A stretch of DNA of 64,000 bases from Intestinimonas butyriciproducens (GTDB taxonomy: Bacteria; Bacillota; Clostridia; Oscillospirales; Oscillospiraceae). The DNA is taken from positions 2,666,001 through 2,730,000 of the forward strand of contig NZ_CP011524.1 of the NCBI RefSeq assembly GCF_004154955.1, given 5' to 3'. The stretch's first letter is position 1; every line of letters starts with the position of its first letter. The translations under genes and the position numbers were made by a program. The notes below the pieces were generated by a model. That model worked only from the letters and a program-made list of their open reading frames with translations. It searched no databases and had not been told where the DNA came from. Positions 23,008 through 24,523 of this stretch are shown one piece after another.

Positions 23008-24249
23008 ATGGCAAAGAATGAGAATTTACACAAGGCCAAGGACGCGAAAAAAGACGAGTTCTACACGCAGTATGAGGATATACAGAATGAGCTGAATCAC
23101 TATGAGCAGCACTTCCAGGGAAAAACTGTCCTTTGCAACTGCGACGACCCTTTTGAGAGCAATTTTTGCAAATTCTTCCTGCGAAATTTTAACTATCTGG
23201 GCTTGAAAAGATTGATCTGCACCTCTTACAGCACCTCACCCGTGATTGGACAGCAGCTTACGTTCTTTGACTGGATGGACGAGCCTGTTGTCCGGGGGCA
23301 CGGCTATGCCATGGACATCAGAGAAGTTCCGATGGCAAACGGCAGGGGCGTATCTGACGCGGATATTGACGCCCTTTTGAAATCCAAAAAGCGCGGGGTA
23401 AAAAAGTTAGAGGGCGACGGGGATTTTCGCAGTGAGGAATGTATCGAATATCTCAAACAGGCGGACATTGTAGTTACGAATCCGCCGTTTAGCCTGTTTC
23501 GGGAATATGTGGCCCAACTCATGGAGTACGGCAAAAAATTTTTAATTATAGGAAGTAAAAATGCGGTTACATACAAAGAAATTTTTCCGCTTATTAAAGA
23601 GGATAAATTGTGGCTTGGCTATGGTTTCAGAAAAGATGACGCGTATTTTCGGATACCTCTTGAAAGAGCGATGGGGTATGCCCCCGGTGTATACAATCCG
23701 GCCACAGGGCTTGTTCATTTCCGCAACTGTACTTGGTATACAAATTTAGATATTCAAAAACGGCATGAAGAATTAACGCTGTTCAAACGATATTACGGCA
23801 ACGAAGAAGAATATCCCCATTATGCGAATTACGATGCAATAGAAGTATCGAAGGTCAGTGATATTCCTTGCGACTACTATGAGGAAATCGGCGTTCCCAT
23901 CACCTATCTGGACAAGCATAATCCCGATCAGTTTGAAATCATTGGGGCAAGCAGATGGTTAGGAAAACCCATGTCGGAAATCGCCCCTAAAGGGAGTTAT
24001 GTGTCCGGCGGAGTGCGTTTCTATTTGCCTGTTGAAAGTTCACAAAATGTTCATGTAGAGAGAGAGAGAGAGAGAGAGAGAGAGAGAGAGAGAGAGAGAG
24101 AGAGAGAGAGAGAGAGAGACTCCTCTTCCGCTGTCTCTACGACAGAGTGGTCATCAAGCGCCGCAGGGTATAGACGGCTGTATGACCGGATCGTCATCAA
24201 GCGGAAGGTGCAGCGGTGTCATGGGCGTTCCCATCACCTTTTTGGATAA
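23008..24249 (+). CDS. EcoRI-family adenine-specific DNA methyltransferase with phase-variable C-terminus
   Basis: 413 residues as read with the present tract length. The N-terminal start with KKDEFYTQYEDIQNELNHY, the segment TVLCNCDDPFESNF and the catalytic motif IVVTNPPFSLF (near residue 165) match the EcoRI-type adenine-N6 methylase family. A C-terminal module GVPITYLDKHNPDQFEIIG starts near residue 297. From base 24057 an (AG)31 tract encodes (Glu-Arg)10, and the frame then ends with a 43-residue tail containing RRLYDRIVIKRK and a stop at 24249. The other two frames after the tract carry other tails (separate entries). GC content is visibly lower than in neighbouring genes, suggesting transfer. 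The cognate nuclease candidate follows. That this form is active is inferred. Confidence 0.88.
   Translation: MAKNENLHKAKDAKKDEFYTQYEDIQNELNHYEQHFQGKTVLCNCDDPFESNFCKFFLRNFNYLGLKRLICTSYSTSPVIGQQLTFFDWMDEPVVRGHGYAMDIREVPMANGRGVSDADIDALLKSKKRGVKKLEGDGDFRSEECIEYLKQADIVVTNPPFSLFREYVAQLMEYGKKFLIIGSKNAVTYKEIFPLIKEDKLWLGYGFRKDDAYFRIPLERAMGYAPGVYNPATGLVHFRNCTWYTNLDIQKRHEELTLFKRYYGNEEEYPHYANYDAIEVSKVSDIPCDYYEEIGVPITYLDKHNPDQFEIIGASRWLGKPMSEIAPKGSYVSGGVRFYLPVESSQNVHVERERERERERERERERERERDSSSAVSTTEWSSSAAGYRRLYDRIVIKRKVQRCHGRSHHLFG
24057..24119 (+). repeat. (AG)31 simple sequence repeat inside the methylase gene
   Basis: 31 perfect AG units (24057-24118) plus one A. With 31 units the methylase reads into the tail ending at 24249. 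Loss of one unit moves translation to the frame ending at 24173; gain of one unit moves it to the frame ending at 24523. Such dinucleotide tracts slip during replication and are the hallmark of phase-variable restriction-modification genes. The exact unit count may also vary with sequencing. Confidence 0.95.
24120..24173 (+). other. Alternative methylase tail B (frame reached with 30 AG units)
   Basis: Read in the third frame from base 24120, the DNA encodes LLFRCLYDRVVIKRRRV followed by TAG at 24171-24173. The CLYDRVVIKRR block is the same C-terminal motif that the present frame reaches about 43 bases later (RRLYDRIVIKRK). Because the two blocks are 43 bases apart, they lie in different frames. 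The compact end and immediate stop suggest that this is a natural C-terminus. Confidence 0.7.
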
Positions 24250-24523
24250 GTACAATCCAGAGCAATTTGAAATCGTTGGCTGTGCTGATTACACTGGGAA
24301 ATATGGCTCCGATGAAATCGGAATCAAAAGAATCGGCGAGGAGTGGATCACAAAATATCGGGTGCAGGGTGGCAGAGGGCATTATACCGCAAACATGACC
24401 AGTCTCGTATATTACGATGCGGATAGAAACGCAAAAAATACATTTAAGCGCATCCTCATTAAAAGGAGGGCCATGCCAAATGAAAATAGAGCCGAAGCAA
24501 ATCAAGATCAGGGAGGTTTTTGA
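24120..24523 (+). other. Alternative methylase C-terminal module C (frame reached with 32 AG units)
   Basis: In the remaining frame the tract opens, without a stop, into a second C-terminal module. It contains GVPITFLDKYNPEQFEIVG (from about 24227), parallel to the module already present before the tract, then a different variable part with GEEWITKYRVQGGRGHY and an end block TFKRILIKRR. The stop is at 24523. The last 44 bases overlap the start of the nuclease gene. It would be translated only when the tract length fits; on its own it has an ATG at 24182 but no clear ribosome binding site. Confidence 0.7.

Follow-up and report, generated by a model that had tools for sequence, protein, structure and literature searches.

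What becomes of a DNA methylase when a dinucleotide repeat inside its gene gains or loses a unit: is the enzyme turned off, or does it receive a different end and, with it, a different target? The locus that raises this question lies in a 64,000-nucleotide stretch of the Intestinimonas butyriciproducens genome (the whole stretch analysed, here called the window), where an open reading frame beginning at ATG 23008 was found by replay to enter a perfect run of (AG)31 plus half a unit at 24057-24119. The original prediction held that each of the three frames behind this tract encodes a plausible C-terminus and none is a dead end, so that slippage would alter the enzyme's specificity or its partner instead of silencing it. 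The features concerned are the following.

22771..29063, unstranded: islet of methylase, nuclease, BlaI and BlaR1, with groEL on one side and a desulfurase gene on the other (GC, synteny)
23008..24056, + strand: catalytic core and most of putative recognition module A of an EcoRI-family adenine methylase (Pfam, superposition)
24057..24119, + strand: (AG)31.5, a perfect repeat and putative slippage switch (sequence; sole such tract in the genome)
24120..24223, + strand: frame C read-through, stop-free linker TPLPLSLRQSGHQAPQ... spanning both end blocks (frame replay)
24129..24164, + strand: end block RCLYDRVVIKRR, read in frame A after loss of one unit and finishing module A (frame replay)
24172..24207, + strand: frame B (present frame), second end-block copy RRLYDRIVIKRK (frame replay, AlphaFold)
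24224..24523, + strand: second putative recognition module, complete, GVPITFLDKYNPEQFEIVGCADYTGKYG...TFKRILIKRR, read in frame C after gain of one unit (replay, Pfam, dN/dS)
24480..25604, + strand: DUF262 (GmrSD_N) and HNH nuclease, overlapping the end of frame C (Pfam; PADLOC REase_II, E 1e-123)

A methylase gene with three possible ends

The present-frame product matches the Pfam family EcoRI_methylase (PF13651) over profile positions 1-345 of 345 with an E-value of 2.2e-136, and the frame-C stretch, searched by itself, aligns with the final 68 positions of that profile (277-344 of 345, E 3e-12). The TNPPF motif at residues 157-161 of the catalytic core, which contains the NPPF motif of N6-adenine methylases, is invariant. 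Residues 12-248 of the predicted model superpose on N6-adenine methylases with a Z of about 10 in VIA-align (TaqI: Z 10.0, rmsd 3.1, 147 aligned; Dim1/KsgA: Z about 11), an alignment that covers the catalytic core only. Because the core superposes on TaqI- and Dim1-type enzymes, the tail comes to lie at the position of their C-terminal recognition domain. Foldseek alone returned nothing below an E-value of 0.001, and a sequence search found no PDB relatives of the methylase. The enzyme is predicted to methylate adenine in a defined motif. In the AlphaFold model of the present product the Glu-Arg stretch forms a helix, a loose linker comes next, and the end strand behind it is placed with a pLDDT of about 94; the product carrying the B tail of the related locus L015 gave a poor model (pLDDT 61), so that structure lends no support to the idea that an appended module displaces module A.

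Module A sets in at 23890 (GVPITYLDKHNPDQFEIIGASRWLG...). The tract behind it reads as alternating glutamate and arginine, (Glu-Arg)n, in whichever of the three frames and, being long, perfect, internal to the gene and built of a unit not divisible by three, has the make-up of a phase-variable gene; lying near the 3' end, where it would swap C-termini, it corresponds to C-terminal phase variation as defined by Snyder (2010). With one unit fewer (frame A) the protein ends in ...LLFRCLYDRVVIKRRRV, with the stop ending at 24173; the present frame (B) ends in ...YRRLYDRIVIKRKVQRCHGRSHHLFG (stop ending at 24249), and one additional unit (frame C) leads into a second module, GVPITFLDKYNPEQF...TFKRILIKRRAMPNENRAEANQDQGGF, with the stop ending at 24523. 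Since this frame change adds a homologous module, the arrangement also resembles that of frameshift-mediated recognition-domain switching (Krebes 2013; NgoAV). Frame replay confirmed every coordinate of the tract, the ORF and the stops at 24173, 24249 and 24523. The idea of three separate ends stands in that each frame has a plausible C-terminus, but the blocks RCLYDRVVIKRR (frame A) and RRLYDRIVIKRK (frame B) are near-copies of one another, 43 bp apart and one base out of frame, and the locus has two distinct modules and not three: frames A and B complete the same module, and frame C differs. As frames A and B finish one module, the window locus probably has two specificities in three phases, and its switch is most likely one between two specificities, the first of them given by two of the three phases.

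The 3.22-Mb single-contig genome contains no other AG run of at least eight units, so the tract is not background, and the window methylase is its only EcoRI-family gene. No ribosome-binding site for a separate tail protein starting at ATG 24182 was seen by eye. The number of units in the assembly may be the consensus of a mixture, which makes it uncertain which frame is the present one. An assembly artefact was ruled out, as independent assemblies with different repeat units agree.

Tails and tracts across the family

If the additional ends are translated, selection should have preserved them. The dN/dS of the window frame C against its counterpart in locus L021 is 0.044 (dN 0.078, dS 1.77), and pairwise values range from 0 to 0.16 for the other frame-C tails and from 0 to 0.13 for frame-B tails, several dS values being saturated. 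To judge from these substitution patterns, the out-of-frame modules are under purifying selection and are real protein. The way to module C leads frame C through 67-81 out-of-frame codons belonging to module B, a passage that is stop-free in all nine loci, for each of which the probability of such openness by chance, given the gene's own codon usage, is 0.001-0.18. The nine are related, so that a pooled P overstates their independence, but at least three groups can be told apart among them whose module B sequences are unrelated. Among single-module controls of similar GC only 3 of 135 are open in frame C, and locus L018, which is devoid of module C, has a stop in frame C across module B.

The search for homologues with a tract at the equivalent position, recommended in the original prediction, drew on 70 genome loci collected through a protein comparison; in all, about 20 related methylases have a tract there or nearby. 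Their repeat units are AG, ACAG/GACA, AGCA, AGCAG, AGAAG and CTCAG, all of 2, 4 or 5 bases and never a multiple of three. The loci nearest the window have the tract at the identical protein position, with AG, ACAG/GACA, AGCA, AGCAG or AGAAG units, and the CTCAG tract belongs to a more distant homologue. Both copy number and unit differ between related loci, and the current phase varies, all three phases occurring as the present one. Arrays of at least two GVPIT...RILIKRK modules behind one core are found only together with tracts; the other members of the family have a single module. Most tract loci for which the sequence behind the tract is available carry three different C-terminal ends. Three different tails in three frames, consisting of a short end completing module A, module B and module C, are present in L015, L016, L017, L020, L025, L026, L078 and the L007/L009 pair of genome G022, and L096, which has an AG tract, likewise has three different ends.

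The frame offsets behind the tract are constant. The duplicated end block is common to the window and four other loci (L012, L013, L021 and L023) with a spacing of 43 or 40 bp, which is 1 mod 3, the three-base difference preserving the one-base frame offset; the distance from module B to module C is 166, 172 or 190 bp, again 1 mod 3, in 8/8 Firmicute-type loci. Selection on the tails, these offsets and the open third frame bear out the view that no frame in the window is a dead end, as does the fact that loci built alike, but on other repeat units, recur in many genomes. Being always on is not universal in the family: L018 has one dead-end frame and two tails, and L063 also has one dead-end frame. 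The latter, a Microbacteriaceae metagenome-assembled genome (L063:3967-4282), is a separate arrangement of frame-switched tails, in which an (AG)15 tract ahead of the modules leads to a complete tail in two frames and to a dead end in the third.

On a FastTree phylogeny of 180 methylase cores the tract requires at least seven gains or losses, and it has therefore been gained or lost more than once, or has moved. Eighty EcoRI-family loci on viral contigs had no in-gene tract beside a module array, pattern scans of viral contigs for the A/B junction and for an AG tract with an end block gave no match, and a scan for the A/B junction in 394 genomes of the order matched only G297, which is the very strain of L015, Hydrogenoanaerobacterium An564. 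Several individual loci merit description. The close relative L023 (L023:3001-4230) has neither the tract nor any of module A and retains both end blocks and module C, which is either a real deletion or an assembly collapse. A Selenomonadaceae contig (L078:457-943) has a (CTCAG)12 tract and three modules, with unresolved bases just ahead of the tract. Draft contigs are broken at or inside the tract in L011, L014, L019, L024, L035 and L007/L009, and such breaks may hide loci of this kind in short-read assemblies.

The individual tails recur outside the arrays. Each of M1-M8 and M11 is the sole tail of some non-tract family members, in unrelated bacteria or on phage contigs; M9 has a weak match to non-tract members, and M10, M12 and M13 are each found at one locus. 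Tail M1, with the pattern FRKG.D.KDL.INGK.PYFRILIK, is module A of L018, L019, L020, L024, L035 and L096, and it also ends all of the methylases located beside R.EcoRI on plasmids of Escherichia (E. coli), Leuconostoc and Rhodococcus. EcoRI is specific for GAATTC, and the presence of M1 on methylases adjoining R.EcoRI predicts that specificity for M1. As the tails occur singly in non-switching relatives, a change of specificity is the natural reading of a change of tail, and we infer that the tails are interchangeable recognition modules. A different arrangement is seen in an EcoRI-family methylase on a phage contig (L154:3844-4051, IMGVR_UViG_3300028805_000056), which ends in tail M4 and has the EcoRI-type tail M1 inverted behind it. 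A perfect inverted repeat of 17 bp flanks the two, an arrangement suggestive of a tail that can be flipped and thus of another route to tail exchange.

The proposed switch, its nuclease and rival explanations

The adjacent nuclease gene, called a Type II restriction enzyme by PADLOC, gives the locus the two-gene layout of a Type II restriction-modification system. A DUF262-HNH gene accompanies the methylase in 164 of 214 loci, including all tract loci with enough sequence, and its identity within the tract group is 71-91% (about 50% for L026) regardless of the tails. Across 7626 pairs, nuclease identity is explained by core identity and not by tail type. A nuclease specificity matched to the tail leaves no overall trace in these pairs, the coefficient for sharing a tail being about -0.3 points when methylase core identity is allowed for; among pairs above 60% core identity those with the same tail have more similar nucleases, but they are also closer kin. 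A methylase of changing target would hardly be compatible with a nuclease whose own target is fixed; the partner here may therefore respond to the state of methylation or be directed to its target by the methylase, presumably having no fixed target itself. The methylase has a GC content of 0.44 (window: 0.61). In the same-genus genome G007 groEL is followed directly by the desulfurase gene, the islet being absent together with its BlaI/BlaR1-type pair, and in the window genome the desulfurase gene lies 6.3 kb further on; the low GC and the arrangement in G007 indicate that the gene arrived with the islet.

Taken together, we consider it likely that this is a horizontally acquired pair of a methylase and a DUF262-HNH nuclease, in which slipped-strand mispairing provides the methylase with a different target-recognition module. 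Every phase would yield the catalytic core and the greater part of module A, the AG tract being placed directly ahead of the last strand of that module. In phase A or B the ribosome would finish module A through either near-copy of the end block; in phase C module A would be left unfinished, and a complete second module would be appended that displaces or replaces it, a mechanism already put forward for Type IIG enzymes of Helicobacter. The enzyme would thus be on in all phases, marking different sequences by phase. Slippage in living cells, the changed motifs and a partner nuclease that follows the methylase are the parts of this scheme deduced from sequence. The predicted swap of specificity gains from tails that are interchangeable and occur singly in non-switching relatives, but in the window it is probably two-way, a three-way swap being likely for relatives such as L015, L016 and L025. 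A broader version, to which we give somewhat less than even credence, is that throughout the family slippage picks among up to three overlapping selected modules, while a nuclease with no fixed target follows or senses the current mark, so that methylome and restriction barrier would shift in one step without self-destruction.

Ordinary ON/OFF phase variation, with a single active frame and decayed copies in the others, is the usual role of tetranucleotide and dinucleotide tracts, and the dead-end frames of L018 and L063 are what it would produce. We nevertheless regard it as improbable, since the tails in the other frames are under purifying selection, the third frame is open in 9/9 loci and the duplicated end block lets two frames finish module A in five related loci; moreover, the other frames of an ON/OFF methylase end early, with no functional-looking end, which is not the situation in the window. 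It is also conceivable that the downstream modules are silent cassettes, donors for homologous recombination at the shared sequence GVPITFLDKYNPDQF, with the tract incidental. Modules are combined differently across loci and hence do move between them, and the phage relative has its inverted tail between 17-bp repeats; but recombination of this kind would leave unexplained why frame C is stop-free through module B, why the frame offsets are constant and why arrays are associated with tracts, and we hold it to be very unlikely. The least probable alternative, in our estimation hardly credible, is recoding, in which slippage of the ribosome or RNA polymerase would generate all three products in one cell from one DNA sequence: long AG runs might favour such slippage, yet GACA, ACAG, AGCAG and CTCAG tracts are no usual slippery sequences and the anatomy around them is identical.

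If module swapping by slipped-strand mispairing is correct, slippage selects among two or three methylation specificities without recombinases, and such switching extends beyond well-studied pathogens to gut and other commensals. Tails encoded in three overlapping frames of one stretch would then represent rare triple-frame coding kept by selection. The link between tail and motif becomes testable, each tail being a natural cassette, and the tolerance of the nuclease for a target-changing methylase would call for an explanation.

Comparison with known systems

The claim that a three-way switch of tails would be new went too far. The term C-terminal phase variation dates from 2010 (PMC2823697), and switching of specificity by frameshift is known from experiments on Type IIG enzymes of Helicobacter (PMC3936762) and on NgoAV of Neisseria (PMC9577141). 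In Helicobacter canadensis and Neisseria gonorrhoeae a repeat near the 3' end likewise swaps C-termini in three frames (PMC2823697, PMC5320596); there the ends are mostly short and homology among them is not described, whereas here they are homologous modules under selection. In NgoAV of N. gonorrhoeae a change in polyG length fuses a second specificity half (hsdS1/hsdS2) and creates a new site, but the protein is a Type I S subunit with two specificities and without a homologous third-frame tail (PMC9577141).

Stochastic change of the methylome, as proposed here, also results from phase-variable mod genes of Type III systems and from hsdS inversion in Type I systems (PMC13076061). A 2026 review describes change of specificity through hsdS recombination and ON/OFF switching through repeats (PMC13076061); mod thus switches ON/OFF by repeats, and hsdS specificity changes by recombination and not by reading frame (PMC13076061). 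M.EcoRI (PF13651) belongs to the same family and shares M1 with several of the switching loci, but it bears a single tail without a tract, and its partner is always R.EcoRI. A literature search within a collection that excludes preprints and most subscription papers found nothing on tract-bearing EcoRI-family methylases or three-tail arrays.

There is a close likeness to the Type IIG enzymes of H. pylori, which gain a C-terminal recognition domain through a second homopolymer, with a change of motif (PMC3936762). In JHP1272 and HP1353-HP1354 a slippage tract near the 3' end adds a domain that overrides the resident one, altering GGWTAA to GGWCNA (PMC3936762). These differ in having a homopolymer, two states and a fused restriction-methylase (PMC3936762), as opposed to the units of 2, 4 or 5 bases, the homologous ends numbering up to three, the separate nuclease and the several bacterial groups encountered here. 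What is new is that a Type II system of two genes has homologous recognition modules set out in three frames.
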